From a virus, in the IMG/VR virus record IMGVR_UViG_3300025810_000040, positions 1 to 32,541 of that record: a DNA stretch of 32,541 bases. One strand, 5' to 3'. Below are positions 734-32,541 of the stretch, piece by piece. The notes under the pieces were generated by a model. That model searched no databases, was not told the DNA's origin, and saw nothing but the letters and a program-made list of their open reading frames with translations. Position numbers and translations under genes: made by a program. Each line of letters starts with the position of its first letter. The stretch's first letter is position 1.

Positions 734-1121
734 GAATCAGAAACTCATATTAGACGGCGAGCTACCTGCACTAAACGAGATAATCGCGGCGAGTAAGAGC
801 CACTGGTCGCGCTACTCTCGCGTAAAGCGAGGAAATACGCAGATCGTCGCGCTTGAGTGTCGAGCGCAACGGCTCAAGCCCGTTGACGCGCCAGTAGAGG
901 TCACGTTTCGGCATTACAGGCCCAACAAGCGCAAAGACCCCGACAACGTGGCGGGCGGGGCGCAGAAGGCGATTCTGGACGGTCTGGTAAAGGCTAAGAT
1001 ACTCCCAGACGATACAATGCGTTATATTAATTCTCTCCATCACTATTTTGAGATTGACCGCAAAAAACCGAGGATAGAGGTCCAAATCAATGTCACAGAT
1101 CAAGAAGAAGTTCGCGCTTGA
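732..1121 (+). CDS. rusA: RusA-like Holliday junction resolvase
   Basis: The 129 residues match the RusA family in length and layout. There is an N-terminal strand with LPALNE, then the hallmark RKDPDN at 67-72 (catalytic Asp69 and Asp71), QKAILDGL at 78-85 with a conserved Lys and Asp83, and LPDD at 91-94. RusA enzymes cut four-way junctions symmetrically and resolve recombination or replication intermediates before packaging. The start is TTG at 732 with no good Shine-Dalgarno sequence, because the upstream bases belong to a terminator hairpin. The N-terminus is family-like, so a start much further downstream is unlikely. The 3' end overlaps the primase gene by 32 bases. Confidence 0.85.
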   Translation: MNQKLILDGELPALNEIIAASKSHWSRYSRVKRGNTQIVALECRAQRLKPVDAPVEVTFRHYRPNKRKDPDNVAGGAQKAILDGLVKAKILPDDTMRYINSLHHYFEIDRKKPRIEVQINVTDQEEVRA

Positions 1122-3402
1122 ATACGCGGCGCGAGGTTGGCAGGTTTTCCCCTGTCACTTCATAACAACAAACGGCACCTGCTCCTGTGGCGAGGACTGC
1201 GGCAGTGCCGGAAAGCATCCGATGGTCCGAGGTGGTCTAAACGACGCGACGACCGACGAGCAACAGATAAAAGACTGGTGGAGCCAATCGCCTTACGCTA
1301 ATATCGGCATACGTACTGGCGAGGTGTCCGGCATTACAGCGATTGATATTGACCCGCGCCACGATGGAGACGCGACTTGGCGCGAACTGGAGCAGACCGT
1401 CGGCCCGATACCCGACACGCCAACCCAGACGACTGGCGGCAACGGGCAACACATCATCGTCAATTACACGCCCCGCCTCCATTCCCAGAACGATGTCGCG
1501 CAGGGTATCGACGTTAAAAACGACGGCGGTTATATCCTTGCCGAACCGAGCAACCACGCGAGCGGTGGGACGTATGAATGGGAATTGGCCCTACATTACG
1601 ACGACCACGCGCCCGTTGACCTTGCCGAGGCTTGGCCTAATGGCCTCCAGAGGCTCGTCGAGTTACAGCAGGGCAATCGACCCCAATTGACGCGCACGAC
1701 GCGACAGACGGCGGGAGAGGGCCAAATAGAGCGCGAGGCGGGGCAGGTTATCGCCGAGGGATCGCGTAATGCTACGTTGACGAGCATCGCCGGATCGCTA
1801 CGCCGCAGGGGATTGGACGCGGAACAAATCGCCGCGATGTTGCACCAATATAATCAACAGTTTTGCAGTCCAGAACTGGACGCGACAGAGGTGGATCGCA
1901 TCGCGCAGGGCATGATGCGCTACGAACCCGCGCCACCTCTACCCTCAACCATCGACCCCGACCTCGGCGTGACTGCTGAGTCGGCTTCTACGCCGTCCGG
2001 CGGTGGGTATAACGTTGTCGGTCTCCCGATGACCGACGGCGGCAACAGGGACCGTTTGGTGGCACGCTACGGCTCGCAAATACTCTACGTCCCCGAACAG
2101 GGTTGGCATCTCTGGGACGGGGTGCGTTGGCGACTCGACAACGAAACCCGCATCCAAGAAATGGCCCTTGATACGGCGCGAACGATACGCGCAGAGGAGC
2201 GCACCGGCATCGTCGATAAACAAGGCGTTGACATTGCCGAAAAATGGAGCCTGTCGAGCGAGTCGCTTGTGCGCGTACACGCCATGATTAAACTCGCGCA
2301 ATCGCACCCGTCAATCGTCTGCGGCGTTTCCGACCTCGATACGCATCCGTTCTTGTATAACGCCGCGAACACTACGGTCGATCTGCTGACGGGCGAAACG
2401 CTCGACCCCGACCCGACGCACCGGCTGACCCAACGGTCCCGCATGATATACAAACCCGACGCGACTTGTCCGTATTGGTGCGAGTTTGTCGGTCAGATAT
2501 TGCGCGAGGACGAGGCGGTAATTCGCCACCTCCAGAAATACCTCGGGCTCGCGTTGACGGGCGACATGACGAGCGAGGCGATGTTTATCCTCTACGGCGA
2601 AGGGGCCAACGGGAAATCAATCTTGCTTGAAGTCTTGGCGTATCTGATGGGCGATTATCTAAGCACTGCACCGGCCCACACATTCCTGTCCTCATCACGC
2701 AACGAGTCGATCCGCAACGACCTCGCAATGCTACGCGGTGCGCGGTTGGTCACGGTATCGGAAACTAATAAAGGGTCGAGCCTCGACGAGGCTGTAATAA
2801 AGCGCACTGTCTCCGGCGATCAAGAAACGGCGCGGTTCCTCCATAAAGAATATTTCTCTTTTCATCCACAGTATAAAATACTTTTGGCGACAAACAACAA
2901 GCCAGAGATTAAAGGCGGCACTCACGGTACTTGGCGACGACTCCACTTAATAGAGTTTGGCGTAAAGTTTGGCTCGGCAGGTCATCCGGCGGCAGGTAAA
3001 AAGGACGAGATTATCGCACGACTCAAAAGCGAGGCGAGCGGTATCCTTAATTGGCTAATTGAGGGGTATCAACTCTACCGCGCTGAAGGGTTAGAACAAC
3101 CCGACGCGGTGCGGGATTCAACAGCGAGCTACCGCGAAGACCAAGACCCACTAATAGACTTTTTCGGCACTTGTTGCGAGATCGGCAGTGATTACACTGT
3201 AACCACAAGCGACCTGCGCGAGGCTTACAACGCGCACACAGGCGAAGATCGGTCTGCGGTATGGTTCGGTCGGCTCATGTCCGAACACGGATACAAGCCG
3301 GAGTCGGTCGGCGGCAGGGGCAACCGCACCCGCGTATATCGCGGCATCATGTTGAGCGAGGACGGGCAGGCATTGCTCGCCCGTAACGAATACCAATATT
3401 AA
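1090..3402 (+). CDS. Bifunctional prim-pol primase and D5-type helicase
   Basis: A 770-residue replication protein. The N-terminal third is a prim-pol (AEP) domain: an FPC...GKHP region near 20-45, catalytic Asp86 and Asp88 in AIDIDP, and GGNGQH at 116-121 supplying the active-site His. The C-terminal half is a poxvirus D5 / P4 alpha-type superfamily 3 helicase: Walker A GEGANGKS at 503-510, a following VSETNKG segment that would carry Walker B, sensor-like LLATNNKPEI, then GTWRR with the likely arginine finger. The protein would prime and unwind phage DNA. A short Cys-rich cluster (CSCGEDC near residue 32) sits in the primase part and may bind metal. The gene overlaps rusA and is followed by a TubC-N-like gene. 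Confidence 0.9.
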   Translation: MSQIKKKFALEYAARGWQVFPCHFITTNGTCSCGEDCGSAGKHPMVRGGLNDATTDEQQIKDWWSQSPYANIGIRTGEVSGITAIDIDPRHDGDATWRELEQTVGPIPDTPTQTTGGNGQHIIVNYTPRLHSQNDVAQGIDVKNDGGYILAEPSNHASGGTYEWELALHYDDHAPVDLAEAWPNGLQRLVELQQGNRPQLTRTTRQTAGEGQIEREAGQVIAEGSRNATLTSIAGSLRRRGLDAEQIAAMLHQYNQQFCSPELDATEVDRIAQGMMRYEPAPPLPSTIDPDLGVTAESASTPSGGGYNVVGLPMTDGGNRDRLVARYGSQILYVPEQGWHLWDGVRWRLDNETRIQEMALDTARTIRAEERTGIVDKQGVDIAEKWSLSSESLVRVHAMIKLAQSHPSIVCGVSDLDTHPFLYNAANTTVDLLTGETLDPDPTHRLTQRSRMIYKPDATCPYWCEFVGQILREDEAVIRHLQKYLGLALTGDMTSEAMFILYGEGANGKSILLEVLAYLMGDYLSTAPAHTFLSSSRNESIRNDLAMLRGARLVTVSETNKGSSLDEAVIKRTVSGDQETARFLHKEYFSFHPQYKILLATNNKPEIKGGTHGTWRRLHLIEFGVKFGSAGHPAAGKKDEIIARLKSEASGILNWLIEGYQLYRAEGLEQPDAVRDSTASYREDQDPLIDFFGTCCEIGSDYTVTTSDLREAYNAHTGEDRSAVWFGRLMSEHGYKPESVGGRGNRTRVYRGIMLSEDGQALLARNEYQY

Positions 3403-4549: not shown

Positions 4550-4581
4550 ACCATAGATCGCAGGGAGGGACGCGGGACCGG

Positions 4582-4616
4582 TAGCAGGGGTGCAGATTGG
4601 CCCCTGCTATTTTTTT
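4582..4616 (+). terminator. Strong intrinsic terminator of the replication operon
   Basis: TAGCAGGGG (4582-4590) pairs perfectly with CCCCTGCTA (4601-4609) across a 10-base loop and is followed by seven T (4610-4616). Confidence 0.92.
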
Positions 4617-4637
4617 CATCTTTTTTTAAAAAAGGTG

Positions 4638-4666
4638 TTGACAGTCTTGTGGTATGTGATTATTAT
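4638..4666 (+). promoter_or_regulatory. Sigma70-type promoter
   Basis: A perfect -35 TTGACA (4638-4643), a 17-base spacer and a -10 TATTAT (4661-4666). It sits directly after a terminator and upstream of two small rightward genes. The A-rich run and TGTTGACA context are repeated at the 30576 promoter. Confidence 0.85.
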
Positions 4667-4676
4667 TCTATCAGAC

Positions 4677-4694
4677 GTTAGCAATGACGCTAAC
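4677..4694 (+). promoter_or_regulatory. GTTAGC/GCTAAC palindrome in the leader
   Basis: GTTAGC (4677-4682) and GCTAAC (4689-4694) form a perfect inverted repeat near the expected transcription start. A near-identical element (GTTAG/CTAAC) stands at 30615-30632, in each case 39 bases from the first T of TTGACA. It may be an operator for a dimeric repressor or a 5' mRNA hairpin. Confidence 0.6.
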
Positions 4695-4715
4695 GCGAAA
4701 CAAACCGAGGACAGA

Positions 4716-4913
4716 ATGCAAATTATAAAAAGTAAAAAAAACCCAACCGGTCGCGGATACGAGATTACTGCATATAGGGCAGACATTGATCAATTTTATT
4801 TTTTCACACTCCATCGTTACGAGATCAATGGGTGGGCATTGTTGGACGAAATCGGCGACTGTCTGCAAACCTTCCGCACTAAGCGAGCCGCTATGGACTG
4901 GATTTTAGCATAA
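4716..4913 (+). CDS. Small early protein, unknown function
   Basis: A 65-residue protein from ATG 4716, chosen because AACCGAGGA lies just upstream (4703-4711) as in other early genes. A longer frame reaching 4590 would start inside the preceding terminator. The N-terminus is basic (MQIIKSKKNPTGRG), followed by an aromatic stretch (DQFYFFTLHRYEINGW). The end (FRTKRAAMDWILA) looks like a short helix. No membrane segment is apparent. It is the first gene of a two-gene unit with its own promoter, so it is probably an early host-takeover or control protein, but I do not recognise a family. Confidence 0.75.
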   Translation: MQIIKSKKNPTGRGYEITAYRADIDQFYFFTLHRYEINGWALLDEIGDCLQTFRTKRAAMDWILA

Positions 4914-14020: not shown

Positions 14021-17000
14021 TTAAGCCCTTCCACTAGTAAACCCCAATCTTTGCGGCTCATCATAGGAGCGGTCGCTCACAGCTTCTTTGACGGCGTTGT
14101 TGATTGCCTCGCTTAACCCCGACGCGTCAAAGTCGATTAGGTTTGCAACATCCACAGGAACAATCGGAAGATTGTTCAGAACAGCATTTAACCCGGTTGT
14201 AATATTCGGCACCATATCAGCAAAAAGAAAAAAGAAATCTAAGACCGAAGGCGTAGAAAATAGATCGGTTGGTTTTATATCAAGTTTTCTATTCGCTGTA
14301 TATTCTTTTGTGTATGCAATAGCCGCGCCGGGGCCATATTCGTCTGTGACGACGACAGAGTTAAGGCCCTGTTGCCAAAAACTACGGAAGTCATCACCCG
14401 ATGCAATACTAAAAAGGTCTGTTGGATTAATACGTTTCTTATTTGCAATCGCGTTATCTAAGACCTGTGCCGCTACATTATCGGGGCCATGCTCGCCTGT
14501 ATCTGCTCGACCTAAAAGAAATACAGACCAATAGGTAGACCAAATACTTGAGGTCGGAACTATAAACATATCGTCGGGATTTATGCGCTTCTTATTTGCT
14601 CTCGCATTGTCGAGCACTTGAGCCGAGACATTATCTGGACCAACCTCTGGGGTGTCGGCTCGCCCTAAGAGAAACACAGACCAATAGGTAGACCAAATAC
14701 TTGACGTTGGGACTATAAACATATCCTCGGGGTTAATGCGCTTTTTATTGGCCCTAACATTGTCGAGTATTTGAGCCGCTACCGAGTCGGGGCCGGTCTG
14801 CTCTGTGTCAGCCCTTGCAAGCAAGAATCGGGACCAATAAGACGACCAGACGCTTGTTGAGGGAACGTCAAACAGTGACCACGGATAAATGCGAACTTTA
14901 TTTGCTCTAATGTTGTCAGAAAATTGAGACAAGATCGGGGCCACCGGATCAGATAAAACCGGCAGAAGTTCCGCGCTGTAATATGACTCCATATCTTGCT
15001 CTGATGGGAGTTGAACGAGTTGGTTTGGGGTAACCATTGCGGCATTGATTGCCACAGTCGCATTGATCGGGGACACCCCTGCCGTTGTCGTCCCCGTTGT
15101 CGTCGCCGTAGTCCCCCCTGTGGCGGTCGTTGTCGCGGCTGTAGTCGATGCACCCGCACCACCGCCGCCGCCCGTTAGAGCGGCCCCTGCGCGGCCCATG
15201 TACTGTAATTGACGTACGGCCTGTTGGAATCGGTTATACGCGGCGCGTTGCTCGAATACATCGCTCCCTGCGCGGCGAAACTCTTGCGAGAGTTGCGTCC
15301 GTAGTGCGATCTCTTGCGCGTTGATCCGCAGACGGGTCGCGGCTTGCTCTGCCGCGCTTAGTCGGTCCACTGCGGTCGTGGCATCCTCTGCACTGTCTCG
15401 GAGATGGTCGAACGCTTCAGAGGTGTCAAAGAATTGTGTGGCAACCTCGGCAAACGATCCGGTATCCCCGAAGGTTTGCAAGAATATTTTTTCAAACTCA
15501 TCAAACGACCCAAAACTTGCCTCAACTGCCGCCACAAAACGTTGCTCACTATATGCTACACTATCCGCAAAATCTTCTAAGGTACCTCCCACGCCCAACA
15601 CATCAAACTCGGCTAAAATATCAAAGATACGCCGCACCGCATCGGCTTGCGTTTCGGGCAAGTCGTTTACCGCTCCGGTTACATTGCCTATATCAATCGC
15701 ACCTTGATTGAGTAGCGCAAAGAAATCCTCAAACACTGTGAAGATTCTTTGCTGTCCTTGTGCTATATCTTCAAAGAAAAGACTCTCAATAACAGATTGA
15801 GCGGAACGGTCTGCTTGCTCTAATGCTCTGTTTAAATCCTCTAAAGCTCGCCTTGCCTTTTCTCCCGAGTCACTTATGCCGAAAAAAGTGTCAAGCAGTA
15901 AAAACAGCCCGTTGGCTACCGAGGTTATTTGTGCGGCAACATTGCCAGAGGTAAACGCGTCGTATATATCTTGACCCGCATCCGCAAACTCGGCCAACTC
16001 TGGGTTAAATCTACGAATTGCGTCTATGGTCGCATCTATTGCCGCCGCTTCTATCTCTCGGAATGTGCTAACGTTTTTTAAATTTTGCTCAAAACTAAAA
16101 ACGCGCTCGTCAACTGCAAACGACGCGGGGCCAACAAGACTTGGCCCTGTTGCGGTCGGTCTTATTGGGCGCGGCCCCGTTGTAGCTGGTCGGGTTTTTA
16201 ATCCTTCAATAAAGGCCTCTTTAACAAGCTCTGTTTCTGCTTTTACATCTGTGGCAATATCTTTAAAACCCTCACTAACCGTAAACAAAAGCTCGTTAAG
16301 AGCTTCGTCTCTTTGAGCTTGTGCTTGTCCCGCGACTGCTTGCTGTGCTTGCTCCCTTCTCGCCCGACCTCGCCCACCGGGTTCAAACCCGAAAGTCTGC
16401 CCTTCTGGGAAAAGCCCAACTCTTTCAGCGGAGCCATCGGCCAACTCTCTGCGTCGGACGTTAGCCCGGACAGAGCCCTGTCTTTGCTCTGCTTTACTAA
16501 GTTCATCTATCGCGTCAGCTATTCCCAATAAAGCATTCGCAAACGTATTACTCACCCCTGCCGACTCGTCGATCTTACTTACCAACTTGGTCAAACTATT
16601 GGTAATAACTGTCATGGATTGGCTAACAGTCGCAGAGGTTTTCCCAAACTCCGTTCTCACACCCCCCTGTTGGCTCTGTATGGCCTTTACGACCGTCTCG
16701 CTTGTCAATGCCCCCTCTGCGCCCAACGCCCTCAGTTGGCCGATTGAGACCCCTATGCCGTCTGCTATTGCTTGTGCCAAGCGTGGAGTCTGCTCAAGTA
16801 CTGAGTTTAGTTCTTCGCCGCGTAGCGTCCCCGACGCGATGCCCTGCCCTAACTGCATAAGGGCCGCATCGGCGGCTTGTGCCGACGCTCCCGAGATAGT
16901 TATAGCTTGAGAGATGGTTTCCGTAATATCGACAAGCTCGCTCTGGGTTAGCCCTAACTCCTCCGACGAACGGGCAAGGCGCGAGTAAAGGTCAACCGTC

Positions 17001-29552: not shown

Positions 29553-29624
29553 GCCCTTATGTAAACCTTTTCACGTGGAACACCTACAAGCCAGATAAGA
29601 AATATTTTCCTACTCAGTGGGTCG

Positions 29625-29963
29625 GTGTACAAGTAAACCGAGTATGTACCAAGTATATTTTTTTTACTCGGTGACCTTAACCCTATTAAGAATAAAGCAC
29701 TTACGAGCCGTGCACAGGTAAACAGGGTAAAAACCGTTGGTTGATTTTTTTTAGAGGAAAAACGCTTTTCTATACACGGGAGAAAAAAGGCGTTTTACTT
29801 GGTGACATTTGCATAAGTCCTATATTCTAAATACACTTAAGGTCACTAAGTAAGCTTTTTTTACTTGTACACAAAAAAGATAAAAGTCTTATAAGTTATT
29901 AAAGAAACAAGAGGTTAAGTGTCACCAAGTAAAATAGGCTATACTTGGTGCTTACTTGGTGAC
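29625..29963. repeat. Iteron-like array, TTACTTGGTGAC consensus
   Basis: Direct copies: 29664 (TTACTCGGTGAC), 29795, 29861 (TTACTTGTACAC), 29942 (partial) and 29952. Inverted copies: 29625 (GTGTACAAGTAA), 29646 (GTACCAAGTA), 29842 (GTCACTAAGTAA) and 29921 (GTCACCAAGTAA). TTTTACTTGGTGACA at 29793 and its exact complement at 29920 form a 15-bp perfect inverted repeat. Variants include TTACTTGTACAC, itself paired with GTGTACAAGTAA. Likely binding sites of a replication initiator or regulator. Confidence 0.75.
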
Positions 29964-30000
29964 CTATGGGTTTATGGCGGTATTATGTAAACTAATCGGG

Positions 30001-30042
30001 TATAAGCTATAGCTTATAGGGTATAGCTTATAGGGTATAGGG
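30001..30042. repeat. 18-bp palindrome plus 14-bp tandem units
   Basis: TATAAGCTATAGCTTATA (30001-30018) is a perfect palindrome. From inside it TATAGCTTATAGGG occurs twice in tandem (30008-30035) and a third, cut unit TATAGGG follows. GGTATTATGTAAAC flanks the block on both sides (29980 and 30048), followed by TAAT or CAAT. Confidence 0.85.
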
Positions 30043-30077
30043 TCTGGTATTATGTAAACCAATTAGGAAAGACTACG

Positions 30078-30140
30078 CCCAAAAAGAACCTTCAAAAGGT
30101 ACAAAAGGGGCTTTTGTAGGTTTTGCAGGTTCTTTTTGGG
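30078..30140. repeat. 63-bp near-perfect palindrome
   Basis: Arms from 30078 and 30140 pair as CCCAAAAAGAACCT/AGGTTCTTTTTGGG (14), CAAAA/TTTTG (5) and TACAAAAG/CTTTTGTA (8), with only a T/C and a GG/GG mismatch between blocks and GGG at the centre: 27 of 30 positions paired. Both strands are open and encode QKEP-x-K-x-TK-xx-FV-x-F-x-GSFW in matching register. It could extrude as a cruciform or form an RNA hairpin. Confidence 0.92.
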
Positions 30141-30164
30141 TAAACCAATTAGGGCAAACAAAAA

Positions 30165-30244
30165 CCGCTCGACCAGTAACCGAGGAGAAACTGGCCGAGC
30201 GGATTGTGCCGGAGTCCAAACCGGCGATACCCGAGGAGAGTATC
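30165..30244 (+). other. Two hairpins presenting ribosome-site loops
   Basis: CCGCTCGACCAGT (30165-30177) pairs with ACTGGCCGAGCGG (30190-30202) with one mismatch, and its 12-base loop is AACCGAGGAGAA. GATAC (30226-30230) pairs with GTATC (30240-30244) and its loop is CCGAGGAGA. Both loops show the GAGGAG used as ribosome site by early genes, yet no ATG follows. Confidence 0.65.
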
Positions 30245-30262
30245 AGGAGGTATAGGGTTAAT

Positions 30263-30502
30263 TTAGGGCCGCTGTAGTGGCCCGTCAACGTCTTTGTGAC
30301 GGTATCCGATAATCGACTCGGGCCGACAGTTTAACGCACTACAGAGCCGCCCAACGGTCCGTAGTGTCGGACTATAGCGACCCGTCAGCATATTCGATAT
30401 TAGGGCCGGATAGGTTCCCGCTCGCTTTGCCAGTTCCCGGTAGCTGTCGATCTCTGCGTCGGCCATCGCCTCGTTTAGTTTTGTTCGGTCAATCATTAGC
30501 AT
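30263..30502 (-). CDS. XRE-family repressor, probably leaderless
   Basis: A 79-residue protein from ATG 30502 (77 from ATG 30496). After MIDRTKLNEAM it has a helix-turn-helix: SYRELAKRAGTYPALISNML, then PTLRTVGRLCSALNCRPESIIGY, the standard XRE/HTH_3 layout of Cro- and CI-like proteins without a C-terminal oligomerisation or cleavage domain. It is transcribed away from the early promoter at 30576. A good -10/-35 pair places transcription start at about 30503, and no ribosome site precedes the ATG, so the mRNA is probably leaderless, as for lambda cI from PRM. A longer upstream frame exists but crosses the promoter region. Confidence 0.85.
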   Translation of the reverse strand: MLMIDRTKLNEAMADAEIDSYRELAKRAGTYPALISNMLTGRYSPTLRTVGRLCSALNCRPESIIGYRHKDVDGPLQRP

Positions 30503-30538: not shown

Positions 30539-30575
30539 TGGCTTAAACTTTTTTTGTTTTCCTTTAAAAAAAGTG

Positions 30576-30603
30576 TTGACAAGGGAAATAAAAGCATTAT
30601 CTT
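30576..30603 (+). promoter_or_regulatory. Rightward early promoter
   Basis: Perfect -35 TTGACA (30576-30581) with a -10-like TATCTT (30598-30603) after 16 bases. Upstream A-run and AGTGTTGACA resemble the 4638 promoter. It diverges from the repressor promoter 38 bp away, as in lambdoid switches. Confidence 0.7.
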
Positions 30604-30614
30604 TATCATTAGAA

Positions 30615-30632
30615 GTTAGCAATAACACTAAC
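30615..30632 (+). promoter_or_regulatory. GTTAG/CTAAC palindrome in the early leader
   Basis: GTTAG (30615-30619) and CTAAC (30628-30632) with CAATAACA between. The element, its distance from the promoter (39 bases) and the following AACCGAGGA ribosome site (65 bases) repeat those at 4677. Confidence 0.55.
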
Positions 30633-30653
30633 GCAAAACGAACCGAGGAAAAA

Positions 30654-30875
30654 ATGGCAACGCCGCAAATCGAAGCAACAATCGAAATTCCAACCATCGA
30701 AACTTTCAACGTTACCGGAAACCACACAAAAGAATACGCCATTGAAATGGCCAAGATCAACAACGAGGAAGACGACTGGACGTACGTCGCCGAGCCGAAA
30801 AACGCCGACGATCCCGAAGGTTTTTGGACGATAAAGATTTTTGACGAAGATGATTTTTTTGTAGGCACAATCTAA
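30654..30875 (+). CDS. Acidic early protein, possible DNA mimic
   Basis: 73 residues from ATG 30654, just after AACCGAGGAA (30641). 17 Asp/Glu against 4 Lys. Segments include NNEEDDWTYVAEP, NADDPEGFWTIKI and the end FDEDDFFVGTI. High acidity combined with early expression recalls Ocr- or Arn-like anti-restriction DNA mimics, though no sequence family is recognised. It is the first gene after the rightward promoter. A frame extending to 30573 would begin in the promoter and is rejected. Confidence 0.75.
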   Translation: MATPQIEATIEIPTIETFNVTGNHTKEYAIEMAKINNEEDDWTYVAEPKNADDPEGFWTIKIFDEDDFFVGTI

Positions 30876-31920: not shown

Positions 31921-32042
31921 ACCACCAACCAACAACAACCCAATCGCGGCAACGAGAGGAGAGGACCGCGAGCAATAAGACAACAAATCAATCAACCCGA
32001 CAAAGACCGAATGGTCAACGTCAACAACAGGAGAGTAAAACA
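31921..32042 (+). other. Unstructured CA-rich leader of the SSB gene
   Basis: The stretch after the structured RNA is rich in CAA/AAC (CCAACCAACAACAACCC, CAACAAATCAATCAACCC). No promoter or strong stem is seen. It ends with AGGAG nine bases before the start codon. Low-structure leaders favour ribosome access or autogenous SSB binding. Confidence 0.5.
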
Positions 32043-32541
32043 ATGGGATTTTTAAATCTAAACAGCGAACGCAAATACCTCCCACGCCTCGACATGGACC
32101 TACGCGCCGGACGGTTCTTCGCCGTCGAGCGCACCCAGAACGCCGCAGGAGAATGGGAGAGCGAGAAGGTCGAGGTCGAGAAGCCGCGTTTCGTCGCCGA
32201 CCTCGCCAACTGCGAGATCGGGTGGACCGCTTTTGTCGAAAAGCGTCCCGACTCGGTAATGCGTCACTGCGCTGACGGCATGCCACCGCAACCAACGCCA
32301 GAGCATAAGGCCGCGTTTGGTTTTAATGTCAAAATGGTTGATGGGGATTTTGACGGTTCGCTCCGTAAGTTTTCAAAACAGGGCATCACTATCGGCAAAG
32401 CGTTTGACGATCTGGTTGATGCGTGGCAAGCCCTGCCGGAGTCAAAAGACCCGACGAAATGCCCCGTCGTAGCTGTCACCGGCACGACCCCCGTTAAAGC
32501 CGGTCAGTCAACGAATTACGCGCCGAAGTGGGGCATTGTAG
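31993..32541. repeat. Right copy of the terminal redundancy
   Basis: Matches 1-549 with 11 single-base differences (codons TTG/TTA, TTA/CTA, GGG/GGA, GAG/GAA, TCC/TCG, GCC/GCT, CGC/CGT, GAC/GAT, CTC/CTG, GAC/GAT and GTC/GTA). None changes an amino acid. Confidence 0.9.
32043..32541 (+). CDS. SSB-like gene, second copy, cut by the window end
   Basis: Begins at ATG 32043 with the same ribosome site as the copy at 51 and encodes the same first 166 residues through silent changes only. It lacks its 3' end because the window stops here. On a circular map the same gene is completed at 51-674, and the silent differences reflect a related genotype rather than a broken gene. Confidence 0.85.
   Translation, partial: MGFLNLNSERKYLPRLDMDLRAGRFFAVERTQNAAGEWESEKVEVEKPRFVADLANCEIGWTAFVEKRPDSVMRHCADGMPPQPTPEHKAAFGFNVKMVDGDFDGSLRKFSKQGITIGKAFDDLVDAWQALPESKDPTKCPVVAVTGTTPVKAGQSTNYAPKWGIV

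Follow-up and report, generated by a model that had tools for sequence, protein, structure and literature searches.

Four 9 bp iterons in a phage palindrome probably mark an orphan copy of a DUF3987-type replication origin

DUF3987 is a domain of unknown function that is common in mobile elements. Here we report that palindromes made of 9 bp iterons often lie just behind genes that encode it, and that a palindrome of this type in a phage is, to judge from its sequence, probably an orphan copy of a putative DUF3987-type origin. On balance we favor the view, with moderate confidence, that the phage copy is a replication-origin site that acts in trans with a helicase from another element. The phage sequence is the 32,541 nucleotide virus record IMGVR_UViG_3300025810_000040, which was analyzed at its full length and is referred to as the window. 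Its two ends share 547 bp at 98% identity (1-547 versus 31993-32539), so it is probably the near-complete genome of a tailed phage; the shared ends themselves likely mean that the genome is complete or circularly permuted and that strains differing slightly went into its assembly. The capsid protein has weak matches in Acidobacteriota. An earlier note on this DNA had tentatively taken the palindrome for a dispersed, Rickettsia-like element encoding nearly the same peptide on both strands, and had suggested a function in replication or mobility; the replication role is the best reading here.

The palindrome, as the earlier note described it, is real and far beyond chance. Its arms (30078-30107 and 30111-30140, with a 3 nt loop) pair at 27 of 30 positions, whereas the best 30 nt arm pair reached 21/30 when the whole record was dinucleotide-shuffled 20 times and 20/30 when the local region was shuffled 200 times. 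As single-stranded DNA, 30068-30150 folds at -23.7 kcal/mol (z -6.2). The palindrome is composed of four 9 bp iterons, CCTnCAAAA, in a 2+2 inverted arrangement, two on each strand and facing each other (Table 1). This consensus comes from 32 nine-base units in eight palindromes; seven belong to the window lineage, and the eighth is from an unrelated virus, L183. Position 4 alone is free, and its cross-stem pairing is no better than that of shuffled letters; the remaining positions are nearly invariant, and the flanks differ by roughly 14-27%. The constancy of the iterons against their more variable flanks suggests constraint and a function for the element. Base pairing is not conserved at the variable iteron positions. 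As far as the 32 units tell, conservation lies in the 9 bp motif and not in the stem, a pattern that points to recognition of double-stranded DNA by a protein.

These properties also bear on the idea that the palindrome works as an RNA hairpin or transcription terminator. A strong hairpin is indeed predicted (RNA z -5.7). Nevertheless, covariation is absent from the stem, and the wobble-type mismatches of DUF3987-linked arms have no strand bias; on these two results we reject selection for an RNA hairpin. Moreover, no T-run follows the stem, terminator prediction does not list the palindrome, and all Rfam matches are sub-threshold, with none over the curated cut-off. We regard this explanation as very unlikely.

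Table 1. Coordinates of the palindrome, its iterons and associated features in the window
Feature	Position	Strand	Basis
Near-perfect palindrome holding four iterons, 63 bp	30078..30140	.	Arm pairing and ssDNA fold
Iteron 1, CCTTCAAAA	30089..30097	+	Sequence; motif CCTnCAAAA from 32 units
Iteron 2, GGTACAAAA, most divergent of the four	30098..30106	+	Sequence; CCTnCAAAA motif
Iteron 3, CCTACAAAA read on - strand	30112..30120	-	Sequence; CCTnCAAAA motif
Iteron 4, CCTGCAAAA read on - strand	30121..30129	-	Sequence; CCTnCAAAA motif
Direct repeat GTAAACCAATTAGG, left copy flanking the element	30054..30067	+	Single site in palindrome-free L118, L119
Direct repeat GTAAACCAATTAGG, right copy	30140..30153	+	Sequence
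AT-rich tandem repeat (TATAGCTTATAGGG), immediately left of the palindrome	29998..30043	+	Sequence
Phage's own primase-helicase (Prim-Pol, PriCT_1, D5_N, DUF5906; P4-family primase), not DUF3987	1090..3402	+	

The peptides quoted earlier, QKEPSKGTKGAFVGFAGSFW and QKEPAKPTKAPFVPFEGSFW, can be read on the two strands. Because a near-perfect palindrome is its own reverse complement, similar peptides follow on both strands in every frame, so this is no extra observation. Nor does the quoted frame behave as a gene: no plus-strand ORF of at least 60 aa covers the palindrome, and the one minus-strand ORF of at least 60 aa that does (30073-30288) is in another frame. The proposal that coding is kept on both strands also fails when orthologues are compared. 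Phage orthologues, read from their sequences, shift frame and change the peptide (the palindrome center of L117, for example, is one base shorter and gives a different peptide reading), and of the 61 DUF3987-linked palindromes, 22 are outside any sense ORF of 60 codons. Because the frame is lost in orthologues and an ORF is optional, we reject selection for two-strand coding.

Rickettsia palindromic elements are palindromes readable in frame inside ORFs, and the palindrome described here is likewise readable in frame inside some ORFs. The TKxxFVxF-type peptide named in the earlier note does recur, as TKPTKPGFVGFV and variants, in ORFs of Variovorax, Paucibacter, Comamonadaceae and an Acidobacteria MAG, and related palindromes exist in other phages and in bacterial genomes. 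The in-frame bacterial examples, together with empty sites in phage relatives that differ cleanly from filled ones, as anticipated, would fit a mobile coding repeat kept for its capacity on both strands. By contrast with the Rickettsia elements, however, the palindrome is intergenic in the window, its coding is optional elsewhere, and the peptide is lost in the phage orthologues; in bacteria its position is fixed behind one gene family, DUF3987, and its sequence is specific to each element. It is also present in low copy: nine of ten carrier genomes or records hold one and the tenth holds two, and one of 300 Burkholderiales genomes matched, namely the palindrome-selected center genome. These copy counts rule out a dispersed repeat, and the Rickettsia-like reading as a whole appears extremely unlikely. 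Searches of phage records with the element (blastn), and of phage and plasmid records with both peptides and the small ORF described below (tblastn), gave no match.

The link to DUF3987 comes from bacterial genomes and from other viruses. An exact 44-bit pattern occurred at eight sites in seven genomes (six Burkholderiales and one Acidobacteria MAG) in 257 Gb, against about 0.015 estimated by chance assuming even base composition. Several of these sites fall where a small ORF begins (MxWLxRLK...TKPTKPGFVGFV...), immediately behind a large gene that ends in GGRPSxRYxINP and carries DUF3987, often together with Toprim and PriCT_2. Homologues of the small ORF have different palindromes at the same place. 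Nearby ORFs look, by eye, like tyrosine integrases. The small-ORF family (L007, L008, L010, L025-L037) has a conserved, cysteine-bearing C terminus, RDREGDDRRLCLECxHL, and a very variable N terminus that often holds the palindrome; the members tested matched no Pfam family and gave only marginal hits in PHROG.

The association does not depend on having chosen loci by their palindromes. Among 54 DUF3987 genes collected without use of palindromes from Pseudomonadota, Acidobacteriota and virus contigs, 26 had a significant palindrome at -60 to +250 of the stop, compared with 9 of 150 control ends, taken from other open frames at these loci (Fisher p 5.5e-11), counts that are not fully independent because some virus loci are near-duplicates (e.g., L111/L112 and L105/L106/L108/L115). 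Two loci whose palindromes were known, L056 and L090, were excluded from this sample; L083 was retained, and comes from the palindrome-selected genome that also holds L090. The test gave no palindrome for about half of the mixed sample, for which longer spacers or decay may be the reason. Among Burkholderiales, sampled separately, a palindrome lay behind 17 of 28 DUF3987 genes, and a viral scan whose sole criterion was the palindrome gave hits 30-110 nt behind DUF3987 genes in nine loci (L201, L140, L162, L134, L170, L184 and L182/L187/L200, the last three being one lineage).

The arms of 61 DUF3987-linked palindromes have a self-identity of 0.72 at lag 9, compared with 0.19-0.32 at other lags; this set mixes palindrome-chosen and unselected loci, so its period and co-variation figures describe accepted palindromes rather than a random sample. 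The iteron unit varies widely among elements (CCTACAAAA, GCTATTCCT, TGCGACACC, CCGACAAAA and GTGCCAAGT) with the 9 nt period kept, and the gap between the iteron sets is 1-60 nt, often 1-5. In L053, a perfect inverted repeat with 65 nt arms lies beside a palindrome of 9 nt units, 24-176 nt past the DUF3987 stop, and looks like a separate repeat element.

DUF3987 has been predicted, no more, to be a helicase (Kazlauskas et al., PMC5862659). We find that iteron similarity rises with helicase similarity, with Mantel values of 0.58 for the ATPase domain and 0.63 for the C-terminal region; in partial tests the C-terminal region contributes 0.32 beyond the ATPase domain (p 0.0005) and the reverse gives 0.03 (p 0.14), statistics that protect only partially against shared ancestry. 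By this comparison, iteron sequence tracks the C-terminal region more than the ATPase domain. One DUF3987 protein was modeled (mean pLDDT 87), and its ATPase fold is predicted to be MCM-like, with Z up to 17.9 and an rmsd of 3.5 over 267 residues against MCM, and a Foldseek E of 5.6e-05; MCM came first in the PDB structure search, with other helicase families still compatible. The MCM alignments mostly end near residue 444, and at about 477-523 the model has a helix-strand-strand that looks like a winged helix.

To return to the phage, no DUF3987 was found in the window. The palindrome site was compared in six related contigs: two have a tandem pair of copies (L117 and L160, the second copy of L160 being read from the printed sequence), two have one copy (L135, L153) and two have none (L118, L119). 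Since it is absent from the last two, the element is dispensable. Their empty sites read TATTATGTAAACC(A/T)ATTA(A/G)GGCAA, and where the element is present, short repeats surround it. The right GTAAACCAATTAGG copy does not occur as such in L117, L135 and L160, where the right flank is GGATGxGTTAGGGC or similar. The difference may reflect either insertion or precise deletion, because the element is present in most of these contigs and the window has a right flank unlike the rest.

That copy number ranges from zero to two among close relatives, and that short repeats flank the element, might suggest a neutral remnant: part of an origin, acquired when the phage recombined with a DUF3987 element and no longer functional. 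The near invariance of the iterons outside position 4, set against their flanks, suggests constraint instead, and we consider a functionless remnant quite improbable. A rather weightier alternative, although still an unlikely one, is that the site serves the phage's own machinery, as an operator or accessory origin for the repressor, the HTH protein or the P4-family primase-helicase. The palindrome lies in an intergenic control region, beside an HTH repressor and among other repeats; its motif is well kept in window-type phages; and iterons are also used by P4-type and D5-type helicases. However, the palindrome-free L118 and L119 retain a primase about 96-97% identical to that of the window (98% in the last 120 residues), so the phage's own primase is an unlikely reader and we disfavor it. 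In addition, the motif matches a DUF3987-linked palindrome elsewhere: in L083, from Acidobacteriota, a 21-base arm stretch is identical to arms in two relatives of the window and matches the window arms at 18-19 of 21 positions. The CCTnCAAAA-type palindrome also occurs in the unrelated virus L183. The lack of DUF3987 in the window, the unlikelihood of the primase as reader and the arm match to L083 lead us to prefer an orphan copy.

In virus contigs, matches to a one-arm motif mostly lacked a second arm, apart from those already known, and in Acidobacteriota genomes the only exact match was the known G010 site, near matches having no palindrome. Palindromes of the same type lie between two genes of an apparent phage replication/recombination operon in L144 (1992-2023) and L151 (4159-4190), with no DUF3987 within the stretch covered. 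The end of L003, a phage contig with structural genes, falls inside such a palindrome (4556-4599), about 115 nt upstream of an HTH-like gene that precedes a large structural gene. The window has other repeats as well. Several GTCACCAAGTAA- and TTACTTGGTGAC-like repeats in the control region (29620-29985) look like the phage's own operators or iterons; a module at 4611-4718 and 30549-30656, 82-84% identical between the two places, comprises a TTGACA-like promoter box and a leader ending just before a start codon; and the tape measure gene holds a tandem repeat of a 153 bp unit (14424-14729, 80% identical).

We propose that the C-terminal domain of DUF3987 would bind the iterons of its own element, directly 3' of the gene, and that the inverted 2+2 layout would seat two MCM-like helicase rings in opposite directions. 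The opposed rings would then melt the DNA, and replication would start both ways. In the window phage, the orphan copy would serve in trans as a target for the DUF3987 initiator of a second element present in the cell, from which the phage might gain either a borrowed extra origin or a decoy that soaks up the initiator. The AT-rich tandem repeat beside it, which is shorter in L119 and absent in L118, is a possible melting region. More generally, we suggest tentatively, and with considerable doubt, that phages keep origins of DUF3987 satellites, borrowed or as decoys, using or soaking up a competitor's initiator. If this model is true, many DUF3987 elements would gain a predicted origin, the palindrome just behind the gene, and the 9-letter word matched to the last domain of DUF3987 would become a testable protein-DNA recognition code. 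The elements living in the host would then shape the iteron type and whether a phage has 0, 1 or 2 copies, and orphan phage copies would indicate that phages and satellites compete at replication initiation.

The layout of a helicase gene linked to an iteron origin is known from SaPIs and PICIs; for the DUF3987 case, we found no description in open-access text connecting the domain to palindromes or iterons; one E. coli phage genome paper contains mention of both DUF3987 and palindromes. PICMI satellites of Vibrionaceae resemble these elements in having a primase, needed for full copy number, whose model includes DUF3987/DUF5906; the main text mentions neither an origin nor a palindrome (PMC10803314). 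SCCmec Cch2 is similar in that the helicase binds repeats downstream of its own gene through a C-terminal domain, but it is of the D5/Primase_Cterm type, its direct repeats alone mattered for binding, and it has three 5 nt iterons. The closest parallels are in PICIs, where the origin lies directly 3' of the replication initiation gene (PMC6092414), and in SaPI and SCCmec helicases, which read downstream iterons through the C-terminal domain (PMC7581432). Like these systems (PMC6092414, PMC7581432), DUF3987 elements as a group have a helicase-initiator gene followed at once by two sets of short iterons of element-specific sequence, and co-variation points to the C-terminal region as their putative reader. 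The differences are that the helicase family is DUF3987, that the units are 9 bp long and often inside an ORF, and that the two sets form a single palindrome, opposed across a gap of 1-60 nt, whereas those of SaPIs and PICIs flank an AT-rich stretch; the window copy, in addition, has no adjacent DUF3987 helicase, and its AT-rich repeat lies beside the iterons. As the AT-rich region is not between the iteron sets, our claim is that the DUF3987 system would work like SaPIs and PICIs, rather than that it belongs to the PICIs. By that analogy, DUF3987 and its palindrome match the SaPI/PICI design, in which a self-loading helicase is encoded with its iteron origin directly downstream.
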